From NCBI RefSeq assembly GCF_007858435.1, contig NZ_VIGW01000004.1, positions 1 to 64,000 of the forward strand: 64,000 bases of DNA, given 5' to 3'. The stretch comes from Tsukamurella asaccharolytica. Lineage in GTDB: Bacteria > Actinomycetota > Actinomycetes > Mycobacteriales > Mycobacteriaceae. The position numbers and the translations under genes are program-made. Below, in pieces: positions 10,702 through 44,990 of the stretch (positions are counted from its first letter, which is position 1; each line of letters begins with the position of its first letter). Below the pieces are notes generated by a model that was not told where the DNA came from, did not search any database, and saw only the letters and a list, made by a program, of their open reading frames with translations.

Positions 10702-10712
<11 letters not shown>

Positions 10713-14680: not shown

Positions 14681-14684
14681 TCGC

Positions 14685-14740: not shown

Positions 14741-14763
14741 GCTTCCGCTGAGGCGGACGATGA

Positions 14764-15131
14764 GGGGCCGATCGGTTTCGACTTCGTTTGTTGACGCGGG
14801 GGAAGCGTGCCGGTGCAGGCTGGAGACCACCGTAAGCGTCGCAGCAACCCTATAAGCGCCGATTCCAATCAGCGCGACTTCGCTCTCGCTGCCTAAGCAG
14901 CCAGGCGAGTCTGTCAGTCCGGGTTCGCCCTCGGCCCGGGTACTGGCATCAGCTAGAGGGATTCACCCCGCGGTGCGGTCGCGGCATCGCGGGGGACATC
15001 CAACAGCGACTGGGATCGTCATCCTGGCTCGTCCGTGAGACCGGGAGATCCGAGTAGAGGCACAGCGGACTGCGCACGGAGAAGCCCCGTAGAAATGACG
15101 GAGGACCCGGGTTCAATTCCCGGCGGCTCCA
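14764..15131 (+). ncRNA. ssrA: Transfer-messenger RNA (tmRNA); tag ADSNQRDFALAA
   Basis: The 5' end GGGGCCGATCGGTTTCGAC is the tmRNA signature. The 3' end has a T-arm (GGGTTCAATTCCCGG) and acceptor strand CGGCTCC that pairs with GGGGCCG (one G-U). The G-U at the third pair is the alanine identity mark. The resume codon GCC is at 14858 and the reading frame ADSNQRDFALAA ends at TAA 14894-14896. The tag differs from the M. tuberculosis type at a few positions and ends in the protease signal LAA. CCA is not encoded; the base after the discriminator A (15131) begins CGG. Length is 368 nt. The RNA rescues stalled ribosomes together with SmpB. Confidence 0.95.
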
Positions 15132-15135
15132 CGGA

Positions 15136-15174
15136 CCCCCGTTCACCTGAAACGCCAGGTGGGCGGGGGTTTTT
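15136..15174 (+). terminator. Intrinsic terminator of ssrA
   Basis: CCCCCG and CACCTG (15136-15149) pair with CAGGTG and CGGGGG (15156-15169), followed by five T residues and TCT. It starts 5 bp after the tmRNA end, a textbook rho-independent terminator. Confidence 0.9.
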
Positions 15175-15179
15175 CTCTG

Positions 15180-15251
15180 TCATGAGCAGGGTGTCAGCAG
15201 GCATCATGACAACCTCATGACAAGTCAGCGGGATTCGGTGTCATGATGACA
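15180..15251. repeat. Cluster of TCATGA(CA) repeats behind ssrA
   Basis: TCATGAG (15180), TCATGACA (15204-15211), TCATGACA (15215-15222) and the odd palindrome TGTCATGATGACA (15239-15251) occur within 72 bp. The 11-bp spacing of the middle pair puts them on one helix face. They may be operator half-sites or arm-type integrase sites of a lost element at ssrA. Confidence 0.45.
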
Positions 15252-15329
15252 GCGGTGCGGGCGGGCACCCTCGACGGCATGACACAGCGGTACAGGTTCG
15301 TCTGGGATAACAACTCATCGGGGGAGACT

Positions 15330-15627
15330 CTCCGGGAGGGGGGCTGTAGGGCTGAGCGATACCGCTCGGGAGGCGCGGGATGCGATCCCACCGGAGGTCG
15401 CTGGAATAATCCCCTCGGCGGGGGTTATCGAGCAGGACTTGATGGACCACTTCCAGAACCCAGACAACGGGGCAGGCGCGTTCTACTACGCGACCCAGCC
15501 GCCGCTGCGTTTATTCGTGAGCACGGTCTAAGCGGTCGTACAGGATGCGCTGTGTACCGCAGCGCCAGCCTCAGATGGGTCACGCGCCGGTCTACAGGCG
15601 ATTCTGGGCGCGCCTGGACGGGACTAG
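15330..15627 (+). pseudogene. Degenerate coding remnant with an in-frame stop
   Basis: One plus-strand frame reads like protein: LSDTAREARDAIPPEVAGII, then SAGVIEQDLMDHFQNPDNGA and AFYYATQPPLRLFVSTV, ending at TAA 15529-15531. The same frame then continues without a break in character (AVVQDALCTAAPASDGSRAG, LQAILGAPGRD) to TAG 15625-15627. There is no convincing start; a stop lies upstream at 15280. It therefore looks like the C-terminal part of a gene carrying a premature stop. I do not recognise the family. The 15252-15329 stretch before it holds nothing I can identify. Confidence 0.4.
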
Positions 15628-15947
15628 CACTTCGGGCGTTTGCGTCGAACCAGATACGCCCCTGCGACCAAGTACGCGACATAGATCACCGCTGCGAGCA
15701 CGTAAATCAGAGTCGAGACCGTCGATGGCTTGCCGCTCGCCGCGAGCGCCGCGCCGCCGAAAACCACCACGGTGACGACGGGGGCGAGAATCCAGAACGC
15801 AGCCTTCGTCTTTGAGTCCCGGAGGTGCGGCGGGACGGCGGTGGAGAGCAGCAGCTCGATGAGAACCCACCCGGGGTTATCGGACTTCGATTCCTCGTGC
15901 CTACGCGGCTCTGGCGAGTCCTTCGTCAGCTCAGACTCCCTGGACAT
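15624..15947 (-). CDS. Small membrane protein, two predicted helices
   Basis: The 107-residue product has a charged N-terminal half (MSRESELTKDSPEPRRHEES, then WVLIELLLSTAVPPHLRDSK) and two hydrophobic helices in the C-terminal half (AAFWILAPVVTVVVFGGAAL and STLIYVLAAVIYVAYLVAGA), ending in a basic tail RRKRPKC. ATG 15947 follows a GAGG-rich ribosome site. An ATG five codons upstream is also possible. No family is recognised. It is part of the accessory island behind ssrA and converges with the degenerate remnant. Confidence 0.5.
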   Translation of the reverse strand: MSRESELTKDSPEPRRHEESKSDNPGWVLIELLLSTAVPPHLRDSKTKAAFWILAPVVTVVVFGGAALAASGKPSTVSTLIYVLAAVIYVAYLVAGAYLVRRKRPKC

Positions 15948-16064
15948 CCTCGATCCTCTCATTGGGGGTTCACGCGGTCGTACTGAACGTACGCTACCCG
16001 TGGGTCCAGGCACCCACTGTGCGCCGAGCCGGCGAAAGGTGTCCCCATGTCTGGGCACAAGAAA

Positions 16065-16095
16065 ACCCCCGCTCAGCGTTTGTCTGAACGGGGGT
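16065..16095 (-). terminator. Intrinsic terminator for the minus-strand genes at 16.1-16.6 kb
   Basis: Arms ACCCCCG(C/T)TCAG and its complement (16065-16076 and 16084-16095) enclose a 7-nt loop. On the minus strand the hairpin is followed by TTTTCTTG. It lies 15 bp past the stop of the protease remnant. Confidence 0.75.
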
Positions 16096-16110
16096 CTGTG
16101 GGGGCGTCGG

Positions 16111-16371
16111 CTAGCTCGTGAGAACCGTCAAGTTGTATCCCATGCTCTTGGCGGCAGCCAGGACACCGCTCACAGGCTCCGCGACAATCTGACCCGTGGT
16201 GGTCCTCTCCGCGAGGAGGATGCCCACGAGCACCGATCCGGCGTAGATCGCCGTACCGCTGTCGCCGTGGTCGGCTTCCATTCCGGTGATCGTGAATTCA
16301 CTGGTCGAGAAGTCATCCGGCGAGACCGAGCCCAGCTCCCGACCAGGGGAGCTGGGCTCTGTGCGTTGCCG
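16111..16371 (-). pseudogene. Trypsin-like serine protease, C-terminal remnant
   Basis: A minus-strand frame ending at TAG 16111-16113 reads EFTITGMEADHGDSGTAIYA, then GSVLVGILLAERTTTGQIVA, EPVSGVLAAAKSMGYNLTV. The GDSG is the nucleophile motif of S1/chymotrypsin-fold proteases, and the following VGIL and VSGVL fit the last strands and helix. The frame is closed upstream by TGA at 16372-16374, and no start or His/Asp part of the triad is present. A 13-bp hairpin (16328-16359) lies inside the upstream part of the frame, so the fragment seems to have been cut and joined to foreign DNA. Such proteases occur in the secretomes and phages of this group. Confidence 0.6.
16328..16359. terminator. 13-bp perfect hairpin behind the small secreted protein
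   Basis: GAGCCCAGCTCCC (16328-16340) and GGGAGCTGGGCTC (16347-16359) form a perfect stem with a six-base loop. It lies 17 bp past the stop of the minus-strand secreted protein. There is no T tract, so termination is plausible but not sure. Confidence 0.5.
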
Positions 16372-16376
16372 TCAGA

Positions 16377-16634
16377 TCAGCGGCACTCGAACTGCGTCCA
16401 CATCAGCTTGTACGGCGCACCAGTCCGCCCCTGCGCCTTCGCCTTGCGCCACGCGTCCTGCGTCGCCTGCTGCGGTCCGCCGCCGTACCCGTCGAAGATG
16501 TAGTTCCCGAACATGACTCGCGAGTGGTACTGGCACGTCTCCGCGTTCGCCGCCCCCGCAGCGACCGTGCCGAGTCCCGCCAGCACCGCCGCGCCCGCGA
16601 TCACGCCAGCAGTCACTCTCTTGATCTTGCTCAT
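16377..16634 (-). CDS. Small secreted protein with two cysteines
   Basis: The 85-residue precursor has a clear signal peptide (MSKIKRVTAGVIAGAAVLAG, cleavage near ANA-ET) and a mature part of about 55 residues, rich in Gly and aromatic residues, with Cys near both ends (ETCQYHSRVMFGNYIF ... WTQFECR) that could form one disulfide. ATG 16634 has an excellent ribosome site, GGGAGGAG, eleven bases upstream. No family is recognised, though small two-Cys secreted proteins are common in actinobacteria and their phages. It lies upstream of the protease remnant on the same strand. Confidence 0.65.
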   Translation of the reverse strand: MSKIKRVTAGVIAGAAVLAGLGTVAAGAANAETCQYHSRVMFGNYIFDGYGGGPQQATQDAWRKAKAQGRTGAPYKLMWTQFECR

Positions 16635-16796
16635 GTCTTGATCTCCTCCCGTAGCGGCGGACCCTCCCCAGGGTCGGGGACGTGACATCCTCCGCCGCCT
16701 CCGATTGAAGCATCGGGGCGATGATGGAAGCTAGCGAGAATGGCAACGATCAGGTCTCGAAAAGTATTAACACCTTTAATGAAACGGAGGTCAACA

Positions 16797-17243
16797 ATGG
16801 TCCTCGACGCCTGTCGATTGGAGTATCGAGCCCCTTCTGTTAAAGGGTGTCAAGTTTGCCGCTATCGTCCGAGGCGACACCGTACGGGAAGGGGTGGTCT
16901 GATCTACTTCAACGTCCAGGCGGAGGCGACGGATGCTGCTGCAAGGTCGTCCGCTGCTGCCGCCAGCTCATCAGCAGCGGCAGCATCGTCAGCGGTTGCT
17001 GCGGCGGCACTGAGGGATCGAGCGCGCGCTGCTGCCCCTGCGGAGATCGCCGAGGCGGCGCGGGAGCGTGCCAAGTGCGGTCCCGATCCTGCTGAGGGCA
17101 ACTACCACTTCGACGCGTTGGAGACGAGGCTCTGCAAGCTCTCTGTGTTCGAGAAATACGGGACGTGTGACCAGAGCGAGTCGAAGAATCTCACCCTGGA
17201 CAACTGCGTGGACTGGCTCATCGGGAAGGGAAAGGTGAAGTAG
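16797..17243 (+). CDS. Hypothetical protein, Ala-rich helix and Cys-containing C-terminus
   Basis: ATG 16797 has a strong GGAGG site seven bases upstream, so I prefer it to ATG 16740. The 148-residue product has a basic Cys-rich start (DACRLEYRAPSVKGCQVCRY), a long Ala/Ser run (residues about 45-75) that should be helical or coiled, and a C-terminal part with three Cys (AKCGPDPAEGNYHFDALETR, LCKLSVFEKYGTCDQSESKN, LDNCVDWLIGKGKVK). The N-terminal 35 residues are AT-richer than the rest and may not be native to the same gene. No family is recognised. It precedes a truncated lipoprotein by 2 bp. Confidence 0.5.
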   Translation: MVLDACRLEYRAPSVKGCQVCRYRPRRHRTGRGGLIYFNVQAEATDAAARSSAAAASSSAAAASSAVAAAALRDRARAAAPAEIAEAARERAKCGPDPAEGNYHFDALETRLCKLSVFEKYGTCDQSESKNLTLDNCVDWLIGKGKVK

Positions 17244-17245
17244 CA

Positions 17246-17479
17246 ATGAGGAATCGGCGACGGAGTCTTCTCCCCTTCGCGGTCGACAGCGGGTCCGCAG
17301 TCTTGGCAGGCTGCTCGACCACCATCGCTGGAACCGCTGTGCTTGTGGGGACTGGCAGTGGTGCGGCGTCCACTGAGGTGGCATCAGCGCAGAGTGACCA
17401 TGACCGCGCAATCGTCCGCGCCAAACGGTCGCTTGGCGAGCACTTGCACCCGCTCACGAGCGGGACGCTCCCCTGTTAG
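17246..17479 (+). CDS. Short lipoprotein-like precursor, possibly truncated
   Basis: The 77-residue product begins MRNRRRSLLPFAVDSGSAVL and then AGCSTTIAGTAV; LAGC is a lipobox, so the protein should be lipid-anchored if translated. The signal core is weaker than in the next gene (it contains D and S). The rest is low-complexity and ends TSGTLPC. It resembles the first part of the downstream lipoprotein and may be a decayed duplicate of it. ATG 17246 directly follows the previous stop, which suggests read-through translation from that gene. Confidence 0.4.
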   Translation: MRNRRRSLLPFAVDSGSAVLAGCSTTIAGTAVLVGTGSGAASTEVASAQSDHDRAIVRAKRSLGEHLHPLTSGTLPC

Positions 17480-17490
17480 CGTGCCTAGTC

Positions 17491-18699
17491 ATGGGGAGAA
17501 GAAGGACACCTTTCGCGGTGACCGCCGCTGCGCTGTGTGCCGTGCTCGCGGGGTGCTCGACGGTCGAGGGGATACCCGTCGCGGACCCATCGGTGGAGGC
17601 TGCGTTCAAGCTCGACACAGGCAACTACCCGACGACGCCGCGAGTGGTGAAAGCGGTAACTCCCGCCGATGCATGGCAGCAAGAGGGGTTCCGAATCGGC
17701 GACTCCGTTATTTCGCCGTGGGACGTGGACTCGTCGTTGACTGGCACAACCGTTGGGGAGGGTGGCGAGCTTGTGGGTCCCGTGTGGATGCCCGCTCAGC
17801 TCGGTGCGAATGGTCTCGCGCTGCCGATGACGACCGAGATGTTGGACGCGTTCAAGTCCAGCCCGTTCCAGGCGGGGTTCGTCGCAGCCGCGCAGAACGC
17901 AGACAAGACGAAGGTGTTCCGCGCGGCTCTGTTCCGCTACCCGAGCGCCGACGCTGTGCGCACGGTCGTGGACGCCGCTGTTGCGAAGAACCCGACACCT
18001 GGCACGCAGAATTTGGTTCCTGGCGCGGTAACTCTCATGGTCACAGGCACATCAGGCGGGGACACCGTGACGGTCGGCATCGCGAAGGGCGCGATGCTCG
18101 CCTTGCTCAGCCTGACCAGCGCCACCACGAATGTAGACGCGACGAAAGCAATCCTGACGAAAGCCGTGCAACTACAGACTCCGAAGATCGACGAGTACAA
18201 GCCTTCGCCATCATCTGGCGCTATGCCGAACGTGCCGATGGACCGTGACGGGATCATGTCTCGGACGTTGGCTTCGCGCCCTGGCTCGGACTACAACAAC
18301 GCGTTGTCTCCTGAATTCAACTGGACTGACGGGTACTCGACTGCTGGTACTTTCGCGCGGCTTCTAGTCCAGAACCGTGGGGTAGACACGCGATGGGGCG
18401 TTGACCTCGTGGGGCGCACCAGCTTCGTCTCCGTGCTCCGCCTACCGAACGAGCAGAAGGCGGGTGAATACATCCAAACGGACGCGCTGAACCCGTCACC
18501 AGGCAACCCGTTCGCAACAGTGCCTGGGATCAACTCGTCGCTGGCGAGGTGCTACAGCGGCTCGACGCGGGATCGTGTAGTGCATACGTGCGCGGTGCAC
18601 GGACGTTACGTCGCCTACACCGTCGGCACCACGTTGCAGCGAGTCATGCAGGCGGCCAGCGCGGAGTACCTGATCCTCAAGGCAGCGGGGCCGAACTGA
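17491..18699 (+). CDS. Secreted lipoprotein, actinobacterial DUF7373-type
   Basis: The 402-residue lipoprotein begins MGRRRTPFAVTAAALCAVLA followed by GCSTVEGIPV, a good lipobox (LAGC). The mature part has two alpha/beta halves: LDTGNYPTTPRVVKAVTPAD, then ALFRYPSADAVRTVVDAAVA and, in the second half, NWTDGYSTAGTFARLLVQNR and VHTCAVHGRYVAYTVGTTLQ. Large families of such lipoproteins with the LDTGNYPT.PR motif are found in Nocardia, Rhodococcus and Tsukamurella; their function is unknown. GTG is not used; ATG 17491 is 11 bp past the previous stop. It is the only full-length gene with a family I recognise in this accessory stretch. Confidence 0.75.
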   Translation: MGRRRTPFAVTAAALCAVLAGCSTVEGIPVADPSVEAAFKLDTGNYPTTPRVVKAVTPADAWQQEGFRIGDSVISPWDVDSSLTGTTVGEGGELVGPVWMPAQLGANGLALPMTTEMLDAFKSSPFQAGFVAAAQNADKTKVFRAALFRYPSADAVRTVVDAAVAKNPTPGTQNLVPGAVTLMVTGTSGGDTVTVGIAKGAMLALLSLTSATTNVDATKAILTKAVQLQTPKIDEYKPSPSSGAMPNVPMDRDGIMSRTLASRPGSDYNNALSPEFNWTDGYSTAGTFARLLVQNRGVDTRWGVDLVGRTSFVSVLRLPNEQKAGEYIQTDALNPSPGNPFATVPGINSSLARCYSGSTRDRVVHTCAVHGRYVAYTVGTTLQRVMQAASAEYLILKAAGPN

Positions 18700-19035
18700 C
18701 CCACCTGCGCACGGGATGATTGCCGAGCCGTGACGCATTTCGCCTCGCCACATGTCGTTGCTCGCGTGGCATGGTCGTTCGCAGACATGGACACCAGGTG
18801 ACCCATCGCCCTCGTACGGGGCAGTCGTCGCAGGTTGCCCCATTGAGGTCGCGGATCGAAGGCGAAGCAGTTCGAAGTCGAACAGTCATCCGCTCTCACT
18901 TCTGTACATCGGACACCCGCCCTGATGTCCAATTCCGCGCGGCGGTCGATGCAGCTGGTCGGGTGTCGCACCTGGTGTCACGCGCGGAGGTGTCATATCC
19001 CAGCGGCGCGTGGGGTGGGACGCCCTTGGAGGGGG
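18700..19035. other. 336-bp stretch without a clear gene
   Basis: Short minus-strand frames here contain Cys-rich phrases (such as CDDCPVRGRWVTWCPC), but frames are broken and no ribosome site is convincing. I see no RNA hairpin with a T tract. It is probably decayed accessory DNA. Confidence 0.4.
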
Positions 19036-19729
19036 CTACTTCTCCTCGTCGGGCTTGTCACCGAGCACCTGTAGGTCGATGTGGATTCCGTTGACATTTC
19101 CGTCGGCGTCGTAGGATTCGATGATCGGGTAGAAGCCGTCTCCCCATCCTGAGTGGCAGAGGATGATGTTTGTCTGAGGTGACGTAACTGGGAGTTCGAC
19201 GTTGGCTACTCCGTCGAAGTAGTGGTCGGGGTTGTCCATGCGCTCGACCCAGATGTCGTTGAGGGCGTCCCACTCGCCGCCCTCAGGGGTGACGTCGAAC
19301 GCGTCGCCCATCCGCGAGGCCAGGTCACCGAGGTCATTGGGGAACAGGTGTCCGTACTGGTCGAGAGTCATAGACGCGCTCTTATTGCCGAGCTGCCGCT
19401 GGACGGTCTTGACGTGTGCACCGGACGCGATCATCAGGGACGCGGCGGTGTGCCGGAGCTGATGCGCGCTGATCCGAGGGACGGTGGCGGGCCCGGTGGG
19501 CTCGTCGTTCTCGTCGCGGGGGGATCGATGCCTCGAGGCATCTCTCGACCGCCCTGGTGAACCAGTGCGTGGTTGTCGGCGGCATGATCGGCGTCCCATC
19601 GCCACGGGACAATGGAGTTTCCCGATGGACGTGTCGTTCTGAGTACGCCTGCGAATAAGCCCGGCAACGCTCGGTGGAGTGGAAGTCAAGGCTGTTCGTA
19701 CAGCGCTTATTTTCCGAAGAGGTTAACAT
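19036..19729 (-). pseudogene. Tyrosine integrase remnant fused in frame to a DUF4241-like tail
   Basis: A minus-strand frame carries ISAHQLRHTAASLMIASGAH, VKTVQRQLGNKSASMTLDQY and GHLFPNDLGDL: the HxxR, the late Gly-His-equivalent and the catalytic Tyr (LDQYGHLF) of a phage integrase. The preceding conserved part (PLSRGDGTPIMPPTTTHWFT) is in another frame, so there is a frameshift near 19510-19560. The N-terminal domains and first catalytic Arg are missing. After the Tyr helix the frame runs into SPQTNIILCHSGWGDGFYPI and IHIDLQVLGDKPDEEK; the SGWGDG-Y-P pattern resembles DUF4241. The joined frame is seen; whether it is a real fusion or chance read-through is not known. It is the likely relic of the recombinase that built the ssrA island. 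Confidence 0.65.
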
Positions 19730-37090: not shown

Positions 37091-37163
37091 GGGGCTATGG
37101 CGCAGCTGGTAGCGCACCACACTGGCAGTGTGGGGGTCAGGGGTTCGAGTCCCCTTAGCTCCA
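37091..37163 (+). tRNA. tRNA-Ala (anticodon GGC)
   Basis: A full cloverleaf: acceptor GGGGCTA (37091-37097) with TAGCTCC (37156-37162), D-stem GCGC/GCGC, anticodon stem CCACA/TGTGG with loop CTGGCAG (anticodon GGC at 37124-37126), variable GGGTC, T-arm AGGGG-TTCGAGT-CCCCT, discriminator A 37163. The G-U at the third acceptor pair is the alanine identity mark. CCA is not encoded. Its 3' part serves as the integration site of the element that follows. Confidence 0.97.
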
Positions 37164-37164
37164 C
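37121..37164 (+). repeat. attL: 44-bp direct repeat, 3' part of tRNA-Ala
   Basis: Begins ACTGGCAGTGTGGGGGTCAG in the anticodon loop and ends one base past the discriminator. Identical to 44947-44990; flanking bases differ on both sides. Confidence 0.95.
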
Positions 37165-37181
37165 AGAGAAAATAGCAGGTC

Positions 37182-37216
37182 AGAGGCGGTTTCCGGGTCA
37201 ACCGGAGACCGCCTCT
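37182..37216 (+). terminator. Element-borne replacement terminator for tRNA-Ala
   Basis: AGAGGCGGTTTCCGG (37182-37196) and CCGGAGACCGCCTCT (37202-37216) form a 15-bp stem with one G-T pair and a five-base loop, 18 bp past the tRNA; CCTCGTTT follows. The old chromosomal terminator now lies at 44995-45030 beyond the element. Confidence 0.65.
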
Positions 37217-37225
37217 CCTCGTTTC

Positions 37226-37296
37226 AGACCGCACAGAGACCGCACGATTTCCCAGAGCCCCCGTTTCAGGCCGCACGACTGCGGTCTGGGACCGCA
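37226..37296. repeat. Left-end AGACCGCA repeats (candidate integrase arm sites)
   Basis: AGACCGCAC at 37226-37234 and 37237-37245 (11-bp step), AGGCCGCAC at 37268-37276, and an inverted copy TGCGGTCT at 37280-37287 followed by GGACCGCA. The same motif is clustered near the right end (44789-44836), as expected for arm-type sites of a lambda-like integrase. Confidence 0.65.
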
Positions 37297-37327
37297 GAGG
37301 CCGCGCGCGGCTACGTGCGCAGCGGGG

Positions 37328-38629
37328 TCAGTCGTCCTCACCGATCGCGGTCAGGTTGTCCGGCCACTCGTGGGAGTAGATGTCGAGCGTGATCGACGGC
37401 TTCGAGTGCCCGAGGATGCGCGCGACCTGAACCGGCGTCATTCCCTCACGGATCGCGGCCGTCGCCGCGCTGTGGCGCAGGCCGTGCACGTTGAGATCCA
37501 CACCCGCGAGCGCCACGGCCGGGCGAAACACCCGCTTGCTCCAGTTCCGCAATCGGAGCGCGCCGCCGTCGCTCTGGGAGAACACGAAGGCAGCATCGTC
37601 ATCGAGGATGCCCGCGTGCTCCAGATGTGTGCGCAGCGGCTCCACCAGCGACCGGCGGAACGGCACCCGGCGGATCGACTCCGTGGTCTTCGGCAGACCG
37701 ACGTGCATCACGCCGTTGACCTCCACAGCGGCCTCACGGACGAACAGCGACGGTGCGCGGCCCGGCTCCGGGTCGAGATCGAGGCGACCCACGCGGAGCG
37801 CGGCCATTTCGCCGAACCGGCACCCCGTGGCGCCCAGCAGGCGGATCAACAGCCCATCGCCCGACACCGGCACGTCCTCGCGCGCCCAATCGACCGGTGC
37901 GCTGCCCGTGGTCTCCGTGCGATCTGCTGGCGCTTCGCGGTCGGTACGGCGCCCCGGTCGCTTCGGCTGTGACGCGAGCCAGTCGGCGGCCTTCGCGACC
38001 CGCTCCACTTCCTCCGGGCTGGCGAACCGCTCACGGCCGGACGTCGCCGTGGCCTTCGCGACCTTGACACCCGACGTCGGGTCGACGGTGATGATCGGGT
38101 CCGAGGGGTCGAGGGCCACCGCGAAGATCTGCCGCACGAGCTTCAGCGCGTGGGTCGCCGTCGCCGCTGACACCGGATCGCCCGGTTCGCCGTTCTTGCG
38201 CTGGCTGGCCGTCGGCTTCTTGCGGAGGCCGCGAAGCCACTGCTCCACGTCGCGCCGCTTGATCGCCTGCACGGGGGTGTCTTTCCACACCGGCAGGACT
38301 CGCGCGTCGATCTGCTCGCTGTAGGCCGCGATCGTGGACGGACGTAGGCCGCTGAGCCCTTCGCGCCACCGCGCCTCTACCTGGCCGAACGTGATCGCGG
38401 CCTTCGTCGGGGCGATGTAACCGCCGGTCGCCGCTGCCGCTGTCTGCGCGTTGAGCCACACCGTCGCGGCCTTCTTCGTGGGGAACGATTTCCCCACCTC
38501 GCGGCCGTTCGGGTCGACGTATCGAGCCTGGTACTGGAGGCCCTTACCGTCGCGCGCGGTCGGGTTGCCGTCGCGGTCGTGCCAGCGGTCGATGATGTTC
38601 CGGGTGCCCGGGGTCCGTCGTGTTGCCAT
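37328..38629 (-). CDS. int: Tyrosine-family site-specific integrase
   Basis: The 433-residue recombinase has an N-terminal arm-binding region (QYQARYVDPNGREVGKSFPT), a SAM-like core-binding domain (AITFGQVEARWREGLSGLRP, STIAAYSEQIDARVLPVWKD) and a catalytic domain with the first Arg in LLGATGCRFGEMAALRVGRL, HGLRHSAATAAIREGMTPVQ (HxxR), ARILGHSKPSITL and the nucleophile Tyr in DIYSHEW. ATG 38629 (MATRRTPGTRN) is preferred over an upstream in-frame start at 38656. It points toward attL, which is usual for tRNA-targeting integrases. The set of catalytic residues is complete, so the element may still move. Confidence 0.95.
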   Translation of the reverse strand: MATRRTPGTRNIIDRWHDRDGNPTARDGKGLQYQARYVDPNGREVGKSFPTKKAATVWLNAQTAAAATGGYIAPTKAAITFGQVEARWREGLSGLRPSTIAAYSEQIDARVLPVWKDTPVQAIKRRDVEQWLRGLRKKPTASQRKNGEPGDPVSAATATHALKLVRQIFAVALDPSDPIITVDPTSGVKVAKATATSGRERFASPEEVERVAKAADWLASQPKRPGRRTDREAPADRTETTGSAPVDWAREDVPVSGDGLLIRLLGATGCRFGEMAALRVGRLDLDPEPGRAPSLFVREAAVEVNGVMHVGLPKTTESIRRVPFRRSLVEPLRTHLEHAGILDDDAAFVFSQSDGGALRLRNWSKRVFRPAVALAGVDLNVHGLRHSAATAAIREGMTPVQVARILGHSKPSITLDIYSHEWPDNLTAIGEDD

Positions 38630-38890
38630 GCCGCCAAGATACCGCATGGTGACCACTTAACCTACTGCGGTCTGATAGGTCACGGTTCGATAACGAATGC
38701 TTACGACGGTCCTTCGCGGCCTTGGCCTGGGGTTTCTTGCAGCGGCTGCCGGAATGCCGCGCGAACGCTGCACCCCCTCTGACCTGCGCATGTCACGGTT
38801 GGTGTCAACGTAAACACAAGGGGCACAGTGGATTTCGTGATCTACTGATGTCAGTCACGAGTTACCACGAACTTGCACGAGGAGGACACC

Positions 38891-39142
38891 ATGTCGACCG
38901 TTACCGACCACATCACCGACCTGCCGCCCGCTGACCCCGGCCCGATGCCTGAGCGGTTCACGCCGGTCACGCTGGCGGCCTACTTCGGCCTGAGCCGACA
39001 AACCGTCTATGGGTGGATTCACCGAGGTCAGGGGCCCGCGAGCTACCGCGTCGGTGGCCGCCGGTTCTTCGACCGCGTGGACGTCGAGGCGTGGGTGTCG
39101 GTGCAGAAGGCCGAGGACGTCGCCCGACGGCTCACGGCCTGA
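38891..39142 (+). CDS. MerR-type helix-turn-helix protein, excisionase candidate
   Basis: The 83-residue protein has a single winged HTH of the HTH_17/excisionase type: FTPVTLAAYFGLSRQTVYGW, then SYRVGGRRFFDRVDVEAWVS. ATG 38891 follows GAGGAGG by five bases. It is divergent from the integrase across 261 bp and is the first gene of the rightward operon. Its size and place fit an Xis or AlpA-like activator. The upstream DNA carries several CACGA-type repeats (38840-38880: GTCACGAG, ACCACGAA, TGCACGAG) that may be its binding sites. Confidence 0.8.
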   Translation: MSTVTDHITDLPPADPGPMPERFTPVTLAAYFGLSRQTVYGWIHRGQGPASYRVGGRRFFDRVDVEAWVSVQKAEDVARRLTA

Positions 39143-39223
39143 CTGTCTGCTCGATCGCGTTGCTGTGGCGCGGACTCTGCACGAGACGAAATCCACTACC
39201 GCGCAATGAAAGAGGAACAACAC

Positions 39224-39802
39224 GTGTCCACAAACGCCAAGCGGGGCGATGCCCTGCACGACATCGCCCCGCCTACTTCATCACCCGTCTCACCCGCTAG
39301 AAAGAGACAGCCCCAGGGTACCAATTCCCGCCGACAACTCCCGATTCCTGCGGACTTCAGCGACCTTGGCCGCGCCGCTCTGCGGTACGCCGCACGCGGT
39401 TGGTCCGTGTTCCCGCTTGTCCCAGGGCAGAAGAATCCCCTGACGAGCCACGGCTTTCACGACGCATCGAGGAACCTCGACCGGATCGTGCAGTGGTGGA
39501 CCGAGACACCGGCCGCGAACATCGGTGTGCCGGTGCCCGTCGGCTTCATCGTGATCGACGCGGACCTGTACAAGCCAGGCGCCCGTGAGGACTTGATCCG
39601 GCTGGAGGAGCAGTGCGGGCCGCTGCCCGCCGGGCCGACGGTGCGCACGGCGCGCGGTGGCCTCCAATTCTGGCTTCGCTGCTCGGCGGGTGACTACCGC
39701 GCGAAGGCCGGGCCCACGATCGACATTCGCGCCGGGGGCAAGCACTATGTCGTGGCGCCGCCGAGCGTGTTCGAGGGGGGCCGCTATGAGTGGATCGCCT
39801 GA
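39224..39802 (+). CDS. Bifunctional DNA primase/polymerase (Prim-Pol domain)
   Basis: The 192-residue protein is essentially one Prim-Pol domain of the archaeo-eukaryotic primase type: AALRYAARGWSVFPLVPGQK, then TETPAANIGVPVPVGFIVID and DADLYKPG (the metal-binding DxD), ARGGLQFWLRCSAG (usual GGxH/Y position), and IDIRAGGKHYVVAPPSVFEG. In plasmids and integrative elements this domain primes replication. GTG 39224 has AGAGGA seven bases upstream; ATG 39206 is also in frame. An 11-bp inverted repeat lies at codons 6-16. Its end overlaps the next gene by 17 bp. The helicase that is often fused to such domains is here a separate downstream gene. Confidence 0.85.
   Translation: MSTNAKRGDALHDIAPPTSSPVSPARKRQPQGTNSRRQLPIPADFSDLGRAALRYAARGWSVFPLVPGQKNPLTSHGFHDASRNLDRIVQWWTETPAANIGVPVPVGFIVIDADLYKPGAREDLIRLEEQCGPLPAGPTVRTARGGLQFWLRCSAGDYRAKAGPTIDIRAGGKHYVVAPPSVFEGGRYEWIA
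39241..39272 (+). promoter_or_regulatory. Perfect hairpin at the start of the Prim-Pol gene
   Basis: GCGGGGCGATG (39241-39251) and CATCGCCCCGC (39262-39272) form an 11-bp stem around a 10-nt loop, 18 bp inside the coding region. It could limit translation or end the excisionase transcript. Confidence 0.5.
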
Positions 39803-40322
39803 GCCGCTGCCGTTCGACTTCCCGGACGCTGAGCGGCCCGTGCCGCCGCCGTTGCCGTCCGGGTGGGTCGAGTACCTCACGCGGCCCACGTACGCGGTCA
39901 GCGGCCCTCGTGCGGTGCCGTCGAGCTGGGCTGACTTCGCCGCTGCCAGCGCGCCCGAGCGGGACCCGGAGGCCCTCGCGCGGCTACTGGGCGACGTGCC
40001 CGGCGCCGATGAGCCGATGGACGCCGACATGGCCGAGGTCGTCGGCTACGCCACGCTGGCGTGGCGGATGCAGCGCGAGATGCACGAGACGCTGAGCGCG
40101 GTCACGTGGCGCGTGCTGATGCTGTCGACCGAGGGGCACAGTGGCGCCACGTTCGCCCTGCGGCAGGTGGTCGGCGCCTTCCTCGCGGAGAACGATCGCA
40201 GGGCCCGGCGCGGTCTGCCCGGTGTCCGCGAGCAGTGGCAGCTGGACCGTGAGATCGAGCGGGCAGTGTTCGGCGGCATCACCAAGCTGGGCGCGTCTGC
40301 GCAGGTAGGGGGTGCCGCATGA
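39786..40322 (+). CDS. Element protein of unknown function, 178 residues
   Basis: ATG 39786 lies inside the end of the Prim-Pol gene, and the stop overlaps the next ATG (ATGA), so translation is coupled on both sides. The N-terminal 60 residues are Pro-rich (PLPFDFPDAERPVPPPLPSG), the rest helical (ATLAWRMQREMHETLSAVTW, RVLMLSTEGHSGATFALRQV, VGAFLAENDRRARRGLPGVR). No domain is recognised. Its place between primase and helicase suggests a replication accessory role, for instance helicase loading, but this is inference from position only. Confidence 0.6.
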   Translation: MSGSPEPLPFDFPDAERPVPPPLPSGWVEYLTRPTYAVSGPRAVPSSWADFAAASAPERDPEALARLLGDVPGADEPMDADMAEVVGYATLAWRMQREMHETLSAVTWRVLMLSTEGHSGATFALRQVVGAFLAENDRRARRGLPGVREQWQLDREIERAVFGGITKLGASAQVGGAA

Positions 40323-41572
40323 GCCGCAAGCTGACGCTGAGCGTCGGTCTGGCCGCTGCCGAGCTGGAGGCCCGCAGCGGCCATTTCGACCACGCCGGGA
40401 AGTACGTGCCCCCGACCGAGACCACCGAGCAGACCGAGGAACCGACCACCGTGAGCGAGGACAAGCCGGAGCCGTCGAACTGGCGTGAGTACGCCGGGAT
40501 CGCCGCGCCGGACACGACCGAGGAGGGCGAGACGCGCTCCGCTAGGTCCGCGCTGGTGGACCTGAAGGCGCTACGCGCGCAACCGTTACCGCCGCGTGAG
40601 TGGCTGGAGGAGGGCCTATTCGAGCTGCACGCCGTGAACAAGCTCACGGCCGCGTCGGGCACCGGGAAGTCGGTGCTGTTGGCTGACATGGCTATCCGCT
40701 GGTCGCTGGGCTCCTCCGCCCTCGACCGAGACGACGAAGGCCGCCCCCGTGCGCTCGCACGGCCGCTGTCCGTGCTGTACATCGACGGCGAGCTGGGTGA
40801 GCGCTGGTGGCACAAGTACACGGACGCCAACGCGGCGCCGATGGACCTCCCGGACTTCCACCTGGTGACGCTGAATGACCAGGCGCCGACCTGGGGTGCG
40901 CTGTGCACCGAGCATGGCGCCGCTGAGTTCGTCGGCTTCGTGCTGGAGCTGCACGAGGAGATCGGCATCGACGTCGTCGTGCTGGACACCCTGAGCGCGT
41001 TCGTCGGCGGCGAGGAGATCGACAACGACACGTGGCTGACGTTCGACCGCCTGGTGACGCTGAAGCTGAAGAAGGTGGGCCTCACGCTCGTGTACGTCGA
41101 TCACACCGGGCACAGCAACCAGCGGGCACGCGGCGCGTCGGCGAAGAAGGCGAAGTTGGACGTCGAGGTGGTCATGACGCTGCCCGGCGAGGACCCGCAC
41201 CTACTGGAGCTGTCCACCAAAATGCCCGAAGGCAAGATGCGCAACGGCCACGACGGGCACCCGCTGGAAGTGCGGGTCCGGCGGATGCTCAATCCGCTGA
41301 GCCATGAGCGGGTGCCCGTCGGCAAGCTCGCGGCGTCCGCCGATCCGGTCGCGGAGCTGACCAAGGAGCTACACGAGATCCTCGCGCGGCACCCCGACGG
41401 CATGGCCCGGGATGAGCTTCTGAAGGACACCAAGACCGCTCTGGGGATCACCGCCAAACGCGCCACCCTGGACCGCCTCATCGACGCGGGGCAGATCACT
41501 CAGGACGAAGAGCGGCGGCCTAGCGGCCGACGGGCGAAGGTCTGCCGTTCGAGGGTCGAGACGGCCTCATGA
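40319..41572 (+). CDS. RecA-fold replicative ATPase (RepA/AAA_25-like) with C-terminal winged helix
   Basis: The 417-residue protein has Walker A in KLTAASGTGKSVLLADMAIR (residues about 110-125), then PLSVLYIDGELGERWWHKYT, Walker B IDVVVLDTLSAFVGGEEIDN and a further motif LTLVYVDHTGHSNQRARGAS (sensor-type H-x-G-H), all typical of the AAA_25/RepA hexameric ATPases of plasmids and phages. The last 80 residues look like a winged helix (LHEILARHPDGMARDELLKD, TLDRLIDAGQITQDEERRPS) that could bind the adjacent iterons. ATG 40319 overlaps the previous stop. Together with the Prim-Pol it forms a self-contained replication module. Confidence 0.85.
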   Translation: MSRKLTLSVGLAAAELEARSGHFDHAGKYVPPTETTEQTEEPTTVSEDKPEPSNWREYAGIAAPDTTEEGETRSARSALVDLKALRAQPLPPREWLEEGLFELHAVNKLTAASGTGKSVLLADMAIRWSLGSSALDRDDEGRPRALARPLSVLYIDGELGERWWHKYTDANAAPMDLPDFHLVTLNDQAPTWGALCTEHGAAEFVGFVLELHEEIGIDVVVLDTLSAFVGGEEIDNDTWLTFDRLVTLKLKKVGLTLVYVDHTGHSNQRARGASAKKAKLDVEVVMTLPGEDPHLLELSTKMPEGKMRNGHDGHPLEVRVRRMLNPLSHERVPVGKLAASADPVAELTKELHEILARHPDGMARDELLKDTKTALGITAKRATLDRLIDAGQITQDEERRPSGRRAKVCRSRVETAS

Positions 41573-41862
41573 GCGTCAATTCGCACATACCCCCTGTCGG
41601 TCAGCCTGTCGGTTACAGCTCTAGCCGTCCGGCTCGCGGTCGGCTCCAGACGGTTACATGCCCGGACGGTCACATCCGTGCAGGTCCAGGCACGTTTTCT
41701 AGCCGTCCCGACCCCCGGTCGGCTCCAGTCGGTCAGACCTGTGGTGGTGGACGGGAACCTGTGACCGTCCCACCGTCTCTACCTATAGGGACGGCTACGT
41801 CTGTCGGTTACACAGGTTTTTCTCAGAAATCACCCTCAACCCACCGAAAAGAGGACCCATGA
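41569..41862 (+). CDS. 97-residue frame spanning the iteron field; coding status uncertain
   Basis: The frame starts with an ATGA overlap at the ATPase stop and ends with an ATGA overlap at the next start, which argues for real translation. The product is low-complexity (PPVGQPVGYSSSRPARGRLQ, then PGTFSSRPDPRSAPVGQTCG) with repeated PVG/VGY phrases that simply reflect the DNA repeats beneath it. I recognise no domain. It may be a translated stretch of the origin that keeps ribosomes moving between the replication and late genes, or not a protein gene at all. Confidence 0.4.
   Translation: MSVNSHIPPVGQPVGYSSSRPARGRLQTVTCPDGHIRAGPGTFSSRPDPRSAPVGQTCGGGREPVTVPPSLPIGTATSVGYTGFSQKSPSTHRKEDP
41596..41813. 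repeat. Iteron-like repeat field (candidate replication origin)
   Basis: An 11-bp motif G(T/A)CGGT(T/C)A(C)A(G/T) recurs at 41596, 41608, 41649, 41665, 41728 and 41803, with an inverted copy at 41759-41769. Related GTCGGCTCCAG occurs twice (41639-41649 and 41718-41728), and AGCCGTCC three times (41623, 41701, inverted near 41788). It lies directly behind the RepA-like ATPase gene, where plasmid-type origins usually are, and before a T-rich patch (GTTTTTCTCAG, 41816-41826). Confidence 0.65.
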
Positions 41863-42201
41863 CCACCCGCACCACCACCCACGCCATGCCGATGCGCACC
41901 GACGCCGTCAGCGGCGAGAAGCTCTACCCCGGCATGCAGCGGGATCGAGACCAACGCCGGTGTCCGCTGGATCGTGCAGGGCAGCGGCCCACGCAACCAC
42001 AGCCGCTCATACGTCGGCACCTTCGCCACCCACGGCGCAGCGGCCCACGCCGCCCTCAGCGCCCGCGCGAAGGCCTGCGAGGAGGAAGCCGCGCGACTCC
42101 GCGTGCAGGCGGCCCAGCTCCGCGCACAGGCCAAGCAGTACAAGCGTGGCGCGCCGCTGCGGAACACCGGCCGACCGGCCACCACGACCACCACCAAGTA
42201 G
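41859..42201 (+). pseudogene. Frameshifted small coiled-coil protein of the element
   Basis: ATG 41859 (after AGAGGA) opens MTTRTTTHAMPMRTDAVSGE, KLYPGM. After about 41940 the natural-looking protein is in the next frame: GIETNAGVRWIVQGSGPRNH, SRSYVGTFATHGAAAHAALS, then a coiled coil (AKACEEEAARLRVQAAQLRA) and stop TAG 42199-42201. Skipping one C at 41940 would join them into about 113 residues. The next gene has its own strong ribosome site at 42200. So this is a one-base frameshift: a real mutation, a programmed shift, or a sequencing error. The original frame instead runs on to 43445 but reads as arginine/proline nonsense until 42210. Confidence 0.6.
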
Positions 42202-42209
42202 GAGGACCC

Positions 42210-43445
42210 ATGACCGAGAACACCCCCGACAACCACAACACCGACCGCCGCCCCCGGATCGACGGGCCGCGCGTCCGGCCGCTGGAGGAGACCCCCGGCC
42301 TGTACCTTGACCGGCCCCCGTCGGCCCGCGTCGAGCAGGAGGAGCGGAACCGGCTCACACAGGAGCGCGCGAGCGACGAGCGGCTGGCTGTGGAGGTCGC
42401 CCGCACCAACCAGAGCGTCCGCGCGGCCCAGGAGGCGCGCACGGCCCTGTACGGGGCGCAGAAGACCGACGGCCTCGCACCGGGCGAGCGGCACCCGTCG
42501 CCGGAGCTCCCCGCCGGGGAGCTGGGAGACGCGATCCGGGGACTGCTGAAGCTGGAGCGGATCGAGGGCGCCTACAGCCGCGCGCTCGCACGCCTCGATG
42601 AGGAGCGGCTTAGCCACGCCCAGGACAGTGAGCGCGGTTGGGAGGCCGCTGCGGAGGCCGTGGCAGCGGAGGCCGTCCGCGCGGGGATGCGCAAGGAGGC
42701 CGTGCCGCCGATCTGCGGCCCCGTCTTCGACGCGCTGACCGAGCAGGCCGACGCGGCGCTGTTCACCTACCGGCACTTCGAGAGAATCCAGCGGTTCATC
42801 GAGGCCAAGGCCGTCATCGCGGCACCGGCCGCGATGGGCCGCGCGTACGACGACGCCGACGCGACGGTCTGTGACGCGGCCAGCGCAGCGATCGCTCTCG
42901 CGGGTGAGGCCCGGGACGCGCTGGGAGCCGCCGGGCTCACCGTCGACGCGGACCTGGAACAGGTGGTCGACGCGGGAGTCGAGGGCACCGTCGAGGCCCT
43001 GAGCAAGTGGCGCAGATCCGTGCAGCAGTGGCGCGACGTGCAGCAGATCCGCGCGTGGTGGCGCGCCGCGATCGTGCGCGGCTTCGAGTTCGACCGAGCG
43101 GGGCACATCCGAGTGGTGCCGCCGCCGCGTATCCCCAGCGGTCCGCATGCACGGCAGCACGCGATCGACGCGGCCGCGCGGCTGGCAGGGGTCGAGGCAG
43201 GGGTCCTGTTGGACCAGGTGGTCTGGTACCCGCCGGAGCACTACCAGGAAGGCCGGGACATGGGGGTGACCACGCCACCCACAGGGGTCCGAGGGCTAGG
43301 GGTCGCTGTGGATGCGCACAGCACGTTGCGCACGTGGCTCACCACCACGCGGCTCCTCGACCCCGACGGGCCCGAGGAGGAGCGGTGGGCCGTCGGTCCG
43401 AACGGTCTGGACGCGATCAAGTTGAGCGACACGGAGGAGAAGTGA
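42210..43445 (+). CDS. Large helical element protein, unknown function
   Basis: ATG 42210 has AGGAGG five bases upstream, which decides the start. The 411-residue product has an acidic, disordered N-terminus, long helices (EQEERNRLTQERASDERLAV, SRALARLDEERLSHAQDSER, AAAEAVAAEAVRAGMRKEAV), a central helical domain and a tryptophan-rich part (KWRRSVQQWRDVQQIRAWWR), then a C-terminal region with GPHARQHAIDAAARLAGVEA. No family is recognised. It is the longest gene of the late half of the element. Its stop overlaps the next start (TGATG). Confidence 0.6.
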   Translation: MTENTPDNHNTDRRPRIDGPRVRPLEETPGLYLDRPPSARVEQEERNRLTQERASDERLAVEVARTNQSVRAAQEARTALYGAQKTDGLAPGERHPSPELPAGELGDAIRGLLKLERIEGAYSRALARLDEERLSHAQDSERGWEAAAEAVAAEAVRAGMRKEAVPPICGPVFDALTEQADAALFTYRHFERIQRFIEAKAVIAAPAAMGRAYDDADATVCDAASAAIALAGEARDALGAAGLTVDADLEQVVDAGVEGTVEALSKWRRSVQQWRDVQQIRAWWRAAIVRGFEFDRAGHIRVVPPPRIPSGPHARQHAIDAAARLAGVEAGVLLDQVVWYPPEHYQEGRDMGVTTPPTGVRGLGVAVDAHSTLRTWLTTTRLLDPDGPEEERWAVGPNGLDAIKLSDTEEK

Positions 43446-43663
43446 TGAGCGAGCACAAGGGCATCGACAACGGCTTCGGCAAGTATTTGGACGGCGCCTA
43501 CGCGTCCCGAAAGGGCATCGCCGGGACACGAGGGCAGGGGTCCGACACGACCGAGGACCAGGACGGCCAGCGACCGACGCCCGAGGACATGAGCAAGCCG
43601 CCGAGCACCGGCAAGCCGGACGGCCGGACGGACACCGGTTTCGGGAAGTACCTGCGGAGGTAG
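43445..43663 (+). CDS. Small protein with a GFGKYL motif at both ends
   Basis: The 72-residue product starts MSEHKGIDNGFGKYLDGAYA and ends GRTDTGFGKYLRR; the middle is charged and probably disordered (QGSDTTEDQDGQRPTPEDMS). The same short motif G-F-G-K-Y-L at both termini with a flexible linker suggests a two-point binding peptide, for example a bridge or scaffold. No family is recognised. ATG 43445 overlaps the previous stop, so it is translated with the 411-residue protein. Confidence 0.6.
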   Translation: MSEHKGIDNGFGKYLDGAYASRKGIAGTRGQGSDTTEDQDGQRPTPEDMSKPPSTGKPDGRTDTGFGKYLRR

Positions 43664-43966
43664 GCCCGGACGGGAGAACTGCGCTCAGCGTGGCGCTCAG
43701 GGGCAGCAACGGCATCGCCGAGAGGCAGACGTCGAGCTGCACCCCTGGGGTAGGGGCCCCTCCTGGGGCATCGCACGGAACCCCGCCGCGTACTGCCCCC
43801 ACGGATTCGTCCCACCTTTAAAGCAATCGCAAACATCCTGTTTTCGCAGGTCGGAGGGCATATTGGGGCCCACCAGGCACGCGCAGGCGGCCAGTAGAGC
43901 GGCCCTCAGTGCCACGTAGACGAACGAAATGCACACCCGCGCAACGTAATTCAGATTGGAGAGATC
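43664..43966. other. 303-bp gap between element genes
   Basis: No convincing gene. A GC-rich inverted patch (CCCCTGGGGTAGGGGCCCCTCCTGGGG region near 43743-43779) could fold, and TTTAAAG near 43816 and an AT-richer tail before 43967 may hold a promoter for the two downstream genes. Confidence 0.4.
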
Positions 43967-44434
43967 ATGACCAAGAGGAAGCCCCCAGCGGGCACGACCG
44001 GAGCGGCCTTGACTGCGCACTACACCGGGTGGGCTGCCGACGAGGGGGTGCAGCTCGACCCGTCGGACGTTGCGCTGCTGGAGCGGCTGGCGCGGGCCAC
44101 GGACGCCGTGATCGAGCTGGACAAGGCCCTGAGTAGCGGCGTGACGGAGACCGGCCCGACCGGTGCCGTCAAGGTGCACCCGGCGCTCAGCGCGCGCCGC
44201 GCCGAGGTCGAGCAGATCGCGCGCCTGGTCGTGCTGCTCGACCGGCGGATCGAGGAGGCCAGCGCCGGGCTCGACCCGGCGGACCGCCCCGGCGTGCGTG
44301 GCGTCAAGCCGTTCGAGACGCGCGGGTCATACGGGCCGCGCAGTACCGGTACCGACGGCACCGCGTCCGCGCTGCCGCGCCGCGAGCACCATTCCCGAGC
44401 TGGCGGCCGTCGGCCGGGCAACGGGGGTCGATGA
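43967..44434 (+). CDS. Terminase small-subunit-like protein (P27-type pattern)
   Basis: The 155-residue protein starts at ATG 43967 after GGAGAG. Its core (DVALLERLARATDAVIELDK, then ALSSGVTETGPTGAVKVHPA, LSARRAEVEQIARLVVLLDR) matches the P27-type small terminase layout: two helices, a G-x-x-x-x-G turn, then hPal..r..a...l..L. The tail is basic and disordered. In tailed phages this protein picks the DNA to be packaged; in satellites a private copy diverts the helper's packaging motor. No large terminase is present here. The assignment rests on pattern only and needs a profile search. Confidence 0.55.
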   Translation: MTKRKPPAGTTGAALTAHYTGWAADEGVQLDPSDVALLERLARATDAVIELDKALSSGVTETGPTGAVKVHPALSARRAEVEQIARLVVLLDRRIEEASAGLDPADRPGVRGVKPFETRGSYGPRSTGTDGTASALPRREHHSRAGGRRPGNGGR

Positions 44435-44435
44435 G

Positions 44436-44777
44436 ATGGCGCGCAAGATGCAGCACCCACCAGCGGCGGCGACAGCGGCCACGGAGCACCGACCGACGAT
44501 CGCCCCGCACCCGGCGGCGCCCAAGGGCATCGTCGGCACGGAGCCGTTCGACGTGCAGTTGCGCGCGGCGTGCGCCGACTCGTGGCCGACGCTCAGCTTC
44601 GAGGAGGTCGAGAGCGGCTACATCGCCGGTAACCCGTTCCGGCGCGACGGCGAGCACCAGGTGCGCCCGCTGGAGCGCGGGGAGCTGGGGCCGCTGGCCG
44701 GGTGGCGATACCGGCACTGGAGCCACCGAGCAGCGATCACGGAGTGGTGCGCCGAGCGCCCCTGGATCTACCGCTGA
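44436..44777 (+). CDS. Element protein of unknown function, 113 residues
   Basis: ATG 44436 lies one base after the stop of the terminase-like gene. The N-terminal 35 residues are Ala/Pro-rich and disordered; the rest is compact (FDVQLRAACADSWPTLSFEE, VESGYIAGNPFRRDGEHQVR, GWRYRHWSHRAAITEWCAER, PWIYR) and Trp-rich. No family is recognised. It is the last gene before the right-end recombination sites. Confidence 0.55.
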   Translation: MARKMQHPPAAATAATEHRPTIAPHPAAPKGIVGTEPFDVQLRAACADSWPTLSFEEVESGYIAGNPFRRDGEHQVRPLERGELGPLAGWRYRHWSHRAAITEWCAERPWIYR

Positions 44778-44788
44778 CGCCGTCGCTC

Positions 44789-44853
44789 AGACCGCACGAG
44801 ACCGCACAGAGACCGCAGGAATCTAGATAGACCGCGATAGACGGTGAAAGATC
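44789..44853. repeat. Right-end AGACCGCA repeats (candidate integrase arm sites)
   Basis: AGACCGCAC at 44789-44797 and 44799-44807, AGACCGCA at 44810-44817 and AGACCGCG at 44829-44836, in 10-11-bp steps, followed by ACGGTGAAAGAT (44842-44853), a motif repeated once more near 44896. They mirror the left-end sites. Confidence 0.65.
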
Positions 44854-44946
44854 GAGAGAGGTTGTGACAGACTTAGTGCAGGTCAAGGGCTAAGCGGTGA
44901 AAGATTCCGACAAACGGAGAAAGCCCAGGATAGAGAGATTTACATA

Positions 44947-44990
44947 ACTGGCAGTGTGGGGGTCAGGGGTTCGAGTCCCCTTAGCTCCAC
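44947..44990 (+). repeat. attR: 44-bp direct repeat of the tRNA-Ala 3' part
   Basis: Identical to 37121-37164. It has no 5' half, so it is not a working tRNA gene. Confidence 0.95.

Follow-up and report, generated by a model that had tools for sequence, protein, structure and literature searches.

The stretch of DNA analysed here (the window) comprises the first 64,000 nucleotides of contig NZ_VIGW01000004.1 of Tsukamurella asaccharolytica, from a genome of 4.12 Mb in 81 contigs. Between positions 37121 and 44990 it holds an element that is real and looks intact, with integration and replication genes, a gene for a small-terminase-like protein (TerS) and a series of further open reading frames (ORFs), among them ORF412 and orf72 (Table 1). 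The element lies in the 3' end of a tRNA-Ala(GGC) gene recognised by ARAGORN, and its attachment (att) cores, at 37121-37164 and 44947-44990, are direct repeats of 44 bp that are 100% identical. An original prediction, made from the letters of the window alone, had described these perfect repeats, a tyrosine integrase, an Xis-like helix-turn-helix (HTH) protein, a separate primase-polymerase (Prim-Pol) and RepA-like ATPase, and iterons, and all of them were recovered in our analysis. The octamer AGACCGCA lies at 37226 and 37237 (+) and 37280 (-) on the left and at 44789, 44799 and 44810 on the right, and these copies at the element ends are probable integrase arm sites; one extra copy is found at 38666 (-), just upstream of int.

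Table 1. Features of the element and of its insertion site (positions in the window)
Feature	Position	Strand	Evidence or remark
tRNA-Ala (GGC), attB host gene	37091..37164	+	ARAGORN
attL core, 44 bp	37121..37164	+	perfect direct repeat; equals 3' end of tRNA-Ala(GGC)
AGACCGCA repeats, left end	37226..37244	+	probable integrase arm sites
Tyrosine integrase, 433 aa	37328..38629	-	Pfam Phage_integrase 3e-16
Xis-like HTH, 83 aa	38891..39142	+	HTH_17 3.8e-12 (Pfam); excisionase TIGR01764 4.3e-8
Prim-Pol, 198 aa	39206..39802	+	PF09250 2.6e-36
orf4, 178 aa	39786..40322	+	counterpart of Prim-Pol C-terminal part in relatives
RepA-type hexameric ATPase, 417 aa	40319..41572	+	AAA_25 3.9e-21; RepA 1g8y 7e-13
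Iteron region, probable replication origin	41573..41858	.	7 copies of GWCGGTYA
Small ORF(s), two frames	41859..42201	+	uncertain start
ORF412, 411 aa	42210..43445	+	gene through which the family was found; proposed partner of orf72
orf72, 72 aa	43445..43663	+	GFGKYL near both ends; proposed mimic of phage scaffold tail
TerS-like, 155 aa	43967..44434	+	phrog_1496 3.8e-5; counterpart in 7/9 elements
ORF113, 113 aa, small protein after TerS	44436..44777	+	counterpart in 6/9 elements
AGACCGCA repeats, right end	44789..44817	+	probable integrase arm sites
attR core, 44 bp	44947..44990	+	perfect direct repeat

The stretch up to and including the tRNA is matched in each of the 15 further genomes of the host genus, in some of them partially, and in four (L039, L040, L041 and L046, where L numbers denote stretches of relatives' genomes or contigs compared with the element) both flanks lie no more than 0.6 kb apart without the element, that is, the site is empty. 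In the remaining 11 the right flank was unmatched in the stretch covered, and the gene lists of three of these, taken with about 4 kb, contain no integrase. At the DNA level, phages and plasmids matched the element by blastn in its tRNA/att part and nowhere else, apart from one 78-bp stretch on a Rhodococcus plasmid. The 44-bp att core also recurs at 100% identity in the record of a 30.9-kb plasmid of Rhodococcus erythropolis and in one Nocardia farcinica record, and 37 bp identical to it stand beside the integrase of Tsukamurella phage TPA4. The integrases of TPA4 and of the element gave no blastp match at E<=1; because of this, and because its scaffold tail is different, TPA4 is not favoured as a helper despite the att core in common.

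Prim-Pol and orf4 (39206-40322) are read in different frames and overlap by 17 bases. For the ATPase, a profile of five sequences (A1) matches RepA 1g8y at 7e-13, and the region between the ATPase and ORF412 contains seven copies of GWCGGTYA, a number that 0 of 500 dinucleotide shuffles reached and that accounts for every copy in the element; these iterons make it a probable replication origin. As a single query the ATPase matched one Streptomyces phage (two records) and had distant relatives in 15 of 397 genomes besides its own, with no plasmid match and none confirmed in viral contigs or genome contigs. Its alignment matched 76 viral contigs, none of which gave a tblastn match at 1e-3 to ORF412, orf72, TerS or ORF113.

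Ten element proteins were scanned against Pfam, PHROGs and NCBIfam, and no capsid, tail, lysis or conjugation family was matched at E 0.001, which agrees with the prediction that structural, lysis and conjugation genes are missing. The exceptions in that scan were two small-terminase profiles on TerS and phrog_141, also a small-terminase family, on the Xis-like HTH (5e-4). The region 41859-42201 is open in two frames, and a small ORF in it (41974-42198) has a weak spanin match in PHROGs (0.0079). No major capsid gene was recognised among the element proteins with Pfam and PHROGs, nor was an FtsK-type transfer gene found among the ten proteins in the three libraries. PADLOC, run on nine proteins, reported only mad1, on the Xis-like HTH (7.7e-11), and this defence gene was rejected as a case of a shared HTH. 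Taken alone, the predicted terminase-small-like gene has weak matches (Terminase_4 at 0.0015, below the profile cut-off, phrog_1496 at 3.8e-5 and, by tblastn in phages, a single record, a Klebsiella phage terminase small subunit, at 2e-4), and the call is backed by family alignments. Neither TerS nor ORF412 had a usable match when profiles were searched against the PDB.

A family of such elements was found through ORF412. As a query it found four relatives (L194-L197), and a five-sequence profile matched nine of 381 genomes, five of which are the profile's own source and four of which are new. A weak match in genome G011 (5e-4) was dropped because the ORF412 profile did not confirm it, and no ORF412 was found in viral contigs with either the single query or the alignment. 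One of the relatives, L194 (the same as L214), is from Rhodococcus sp. KRD197 and has an integrase 60-63% identical to the window's; L196, L197, L217 and L233 come from the genus of KRD197, and L195, L234 and L235 from three further genera, giving five genera in total. The original prediction had proposed a search for the same gene order at other tRNA sites, and this was found at tRNA-Pro, -Val, -Met and -Thr genes: the nine sites are Ala(GGC), Pro(GGG), Met and, twice each, Val(GAC), Val(TAC) and Thr(CGT), all with tRNA-derived repeats of 44-46 bp bounding the element. The att spans, measured start to start, are 7826 bp in the window, 7916, 7723, 7558, 7602, 7879, 7538 and 7280 bp in seven relatives and 14694 bp in L235. 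This last element (4414-19153; 14.7 kb, about twice the usual span) carries extra genes of 902, 657 and 400 aa.

The gene order of the family is int, xis, replication genes, ORF412, a twin-motif protein and then mostly TerS and ORF113, with the Xis-like counterparts adjoining the integrase in relatives. By profiles built partly from the same nine elements, TerS is present in seven of the nine and ORF113 in six. The replication module varies, since Prim-Pol and orf4 are separate in the window and fused in L195, L234 and L235; orf4 is therefore no orphan. The RepA-type ATPase occurs in the window, L194, L217 and L233, a primase-helicase is found instead in L197 and, by eye, in L196, and different repeats lie in or beside the ATPase-ORF412 gap in L194, L233 and L234. 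In the place of TerS, L195 (7941-8579) and L235 (10830-11414) each have, as judged by eye, a gene on the opposite strand for a probable membrane protein, and the two proteins are similar.

Relatives with capsid or tra genes had been named as a result that would speak against the original prediction. No capsid, portal, large terminase or tra gene was seen in the nine ORF412 elements, as far as gene lists and partial family scans show (the PHROGs scans took in the main proteins of the window element and some of those of the relatives, and the gene list of L235 stops 1.6 kb before its end). Outside this family, TerS relatives L068 and L069 lie in elements with a major head protein (L068 8201-9064, L069 7394-8662), and the ATPase relative L024 carries a head protease (4618-5571) plus TerS. 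L068, L069 and L024 are capsid-bearing small elements with TerS of the same family, and L068 also has a Prim-Pol with 34% identity to that of the window. For the TerS relative in L234, no phage matched at E 0.01, and TerS thus does not identify the helper. Three other small elements or contigs combine a TerS of the window-TerS family with one tape-measure protein, namely L072 (5490-9149, 9483-9854) and L073 (6459-9428, 9589-9948), which match phrog_13339 at 7.8e-172 and 1.6e-165, and L082 (3723-8663, 9926-10270), which matches phrog_10780 at 4.8e-195. No other head or tail gene was recognised in the gene list of the stretch covered, and these loci may be satellites setting tail length.

The gene directly after ORF412 is orf72. 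Its start overlaps the ORF412 stop as TGATG, and its product carries GFGKYL near both ends. Across the family a protein of 61-121 aa with its start overlapping the ORF412 stop occupies the same place, and the pattern G[FVLM][GA]xY[LV] is found near both protein ends in eight of nine elements, the motifs of the 121-aa protein of L217 being degenerate (GMGRHL / GMARYA). As a control, 2092 other called proteins were taken from loci of at least 4 kb that do not belong to the listed elements; the pattern turned up somewhere in six of them, and in no case at both ends. One of these six (L205) belongs to another satellite-like element of the host genus. In both L205 and L206 (near 3261-3560), also of the host genus, a GFGKYL protein follows a protein of 295-304 aa; these elements also have TerS and a minor tail protein (phrog_746 at 2e-79 in L205; L205 positions 6195-8204, 9994-10503 and 16982-17290), and in L206, which by eye starts with an apparent serine recombinase, the twin form was overlooked by the gene caller.

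The motif is shared with the tails of head scaffolding proteins of the Zierdtviridae. GFGRYL lies 3-4 residues before the scaffold end in six of the eight records examined (P69, Arti, GRU1, Outis, KidneyBean and IDyn), and the remaining two tails read GMAQYL (MacGully) and GMGQWA (GuyFagieri); all eight are Zierdtviridae of 65-69 kb, among 68 records matching the GRU1 scaffold. The last residues of the head scaffolding profile phrog_12880 match the C-end of the L195 protein at 0.0008 and the proteins of L197, L233 and L196 at 0.45, 0.47 and 0.86. For a blind search, the final 32 residues of the eight phage scaffolds were made into a profile, and 17,482 six-frame ORFs, 731 of them from within the nine elements, were screened with it. 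Element ORFs took the first nine places (E 1e-6 to 0.08) and represent eight of the nine elements; the first control followed at 0.17. The L195 twin-motif protein had no tblastn match in phages at E 10. Directly before TerS, L217 encodes a longer protein (11351-11776) that matches phrog_12880 positions 139-226 at 3.9e-17 and ends RGVGRYREQGARG; 59 records match it (56 for Gordonia, 2 for Nocardia and 1 for Rhodococcus), and among the matches listed (30 of 59) many are annotated as scaffolding protein. This gene keeps a larger C-terminal piece of a phage scaffold and is a possible evolutionary bridge to the twin-motif protein. A second, weaker phrog_12880 match in the KRD197 genus, in L219 (genome G482, with a match at L216; 0.0016), covers positions 19-96, not the tail.

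Phage-inducible chromosomal islands (PICIs) of the type of the Staphylococcus aureus pathogenicity islands (SaPIs), such as SaPI1 with phage 80alpha, carry an integrase, a replication module and TerS and have no structural genes, and the element resembles them in each of these respects. SaPIs also have a divergent master repressor pair, whereas no pair of that type was seen in the element, the Xis-like HTH being the only regulator-type match in the library scans of ten proteins; its hosts and helper would differ as well. In the passages covered of two SaPI1 papers, CpmB is a dimer of a 72-residue protein with a C-terminal motif in common with the 80alpha scaffold, which binds the capsid protein at the scaffold's place, bridges capsomers and shrinks heads, and cpmA and cpmB are said always to occur together (PMC5644958, PMC6893505). 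The likeness to this pair, as far as those passages describe it, consists of a short protein of 72 residues, a scaffold tail and a fixed partner gene, as in ORF412-orf72, and by analogy we propose that orf72 reproduces the capsid-binding tail of the scaffold twice, one copy near each end, and would work like CpmB. The two proteins differ in that CpmB, in the same passages, has one motif (RIIK) per chain and dimerises, whereas orf72 has two motifs (GFGKYL) in one chain. Similarly, the zierdtvirid scaffolds of phrog_12880 share the C-terminal peptide but are 224-238 aa long with one motif at the C-end (8 examined), whereas in orf72 the motif stands at both ends around a short linker. The likeness to CpmB is one of working and was drawn without sequence comparison; no CpmB-named family matched orf72 in the Pfam, PHROGs or NCBIfam scans, and the sharing of a scaffold motif is a family-level match to Zierdtviridae tails, the match of the window copy alone being weak.

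Several results weigh against this interpretation. The window's orf72 reached only E 0.19 with phrog_12880, and PHROGs gave no scaffold match for the counterparts in L194, L234 and L235 or for the 121-aa protein of L217. In the blind search orf72 ranked 191 (E 54, best domain i-E 0.29), below a spurious window ORF at rank 130. The two Rhodococcus phage tails examined differ from GFGRYL, as does the scaffold tail of TPA4 (GRDRYAAANKK), the one actinophage tail compared outside the Zierdtviridae. TerS is absent in L195 and L235. In the genus of KRD197 the phrog_12880-type profile matched two of the 37 genomes searched, satellite L217 accounting for one of them, and in the host genus 16 genomes yielded no zierdtvirid-type scaffold, with control genomes equally silent. 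The last result decides nothing, because a lytic helper would leave no such trace in those genomes. For the window itself, orf72 is interpreted as a scaffold-tail mimic because it has GFGKYL at both ends, stands directly after ORF412 and is 36% identical to the L195 protein.

Given these findings, the element is probably a phage satellite of the PICI type without capsid genes, in which orf72 enters helper head assembly through scaffold-tail peptides together with ORF412. Among the marks of a satellite, site-specific integration (att and integrase), a replication module of its own and the lack of any recognised structural or lysis gene were observed; packaging hijack would be served by the TerS-like protein, assigned by family, and by the putative scaffold-tail mimic. 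The original prediction of a small, non-conjugative and apparently undescribed satellite-type element fits this evidence. In the mechanism that we propose, Int and Xis would move the element into and out of the tRNA-Ala 3' end, and Prim-Pol/orf4 and the RepA-type ATPase would replicate it from the iterons. Upon helper infection, orf72 would join head assembly by means of its two copies of the scaffold C-terminal capsid-binding peptide, acting with ORF412, which is encoded just upstream in every element found and could be an antagonist or a co-factor of the helper scaffold. By bridging or capping capsid subunits, orf72 could make helper heads smaller or cause them to fail, and TerS and ORF113 may direct satellite DNA into the pirated heads. 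The att sites, the gene content and order, the family and the peptide identity with zierdtvirid scaffold tails were observed directly; from them we infer that the tails bind capsid, that head size is redirected or assembly disturbed, that the helper is a zierdtvirid-like phage and that the element is mobilised. A more specific model is put forward tentatively, with slightly more doubt than trust: undescribed actinobacterial satellites of ~7.6 kb would hijack zierdtvirid-like phages by a single-chain, double-headed copy of the scaffold tail that is paired with ORF412 as CpmB is with CpmA, that evolved independently, and whose two peptides take the place of dimerisation and fix a new, small size of head.

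The strongest alternative keeps the satellite and changes the role of orf72, which would mainly block head assembly as a scaffold competitor in a defence-like manner, the element travelling in normal-size heads as concatemers. The same peptide data fit this and L235, with its 14.7 kb, has roughly double the length of the others, but the narrow range of 7.3-7.9 kb in eight elements suggests a size constraint, and we regard this alternative as rather unlikely. Much less probable is a non-conjugative, plasmid-like integrative element, related to the actinomycete integrative and conjugative elements (AICEs) without their transfer gene, that is moved by chance transduction and in which TerS and orf72 are relics. 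AICEs are actinomycete elements at tRNA genes with int, xis, replication genes and an FtsK-type transfer gene, and Int, Xis, Prim-Pol, RepA-type ATPases and iterons occur as plasmid and AICE parts too. The element shares with AICEs the tRNA site, int, xis and replication genes, and no helper is shown for it; however, none of its ten scanned proteins matched an FtsK-type family, it has TerS and proposed scaffold-mimic genes instead, and a twin-motif protein beside ORF412 in nine of nine elements from five genera, with TerS in seven of nine, is unexpected of relics. That the element is what remains of a larger prophage, or of a phiRv-like satellite with capsid genes, is very improbable and largely refuted. 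TerS relatives do occur with major head proteins (L068, L069) and with a head protease (L024), but the plan recurs in nine elements from five genera, eight of them similar in length, all bounded by tRNA-derived repeats and none with a capsid, portal or large terminase gene seen in gene lists and partial scans, which makes a prophage or AICE remnant unlikely.

According to the sections covered of an actinobacterial prophage survey, much is known of phage satellites from staphylococci, enterobacteria and Vibrio, many small elements of actinobacteria are supposed satellites and experimental validation in this group lags; Tsukamurella is absent from its text (PMC10023795). Similarly, a word search in the covered text of a Rhodococcus phage survey did not find the word satellite (PMC13313380). 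The Mycobacterium survey, in the part covered, deals with Mycobacterium and few Hoyosella genomes and takes as candidate PICIs elements with an integrase and a major capsid gene, along with SatelliteFinder results (PMC10654092). These candidates, including phiRv1/phiRv2-like ones, resemble the window element in their integrases, some at tRNA genes, as described there (PMC10654092), and the capsid-bearing elements L068 and L069 have TerS related to the window's; they differ in the capsid gene, which the window element is without. The Streptomyces satellites MulchRoom and MiniFlayer are likewise actinobacterial phage satellites and, in the portion covered of their description, have capsid, portal and both terminase subunits and no recognisable primase (PMC10690885), whereas the window element has a primase and is without capsid, portal and large terminase.

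No description of the ORF412 family was found in the literature, among the matches listed in open-licence texts, and we place the element in a family of its own, new among phage satellites, which are a known kind. What is new is orf72 with its counterparts, in which a scaffold-tail peptide stands near both ends of a short protein, and the twin GFGKYL peptide suggests how phage shells could be stolen or spoiled. Elements of this sort would escape the criterion applied to Mycobacterium, an integrase together with a capsid gene, and the ORF412 family offers a named candidate helper group and a short peptide that can be tested. If our interpretation is true, different satellites have come to copy the helper scaffold tail on at least two occasions, and a single chain with two short peptides suffices to control or spoil phage head assembly.

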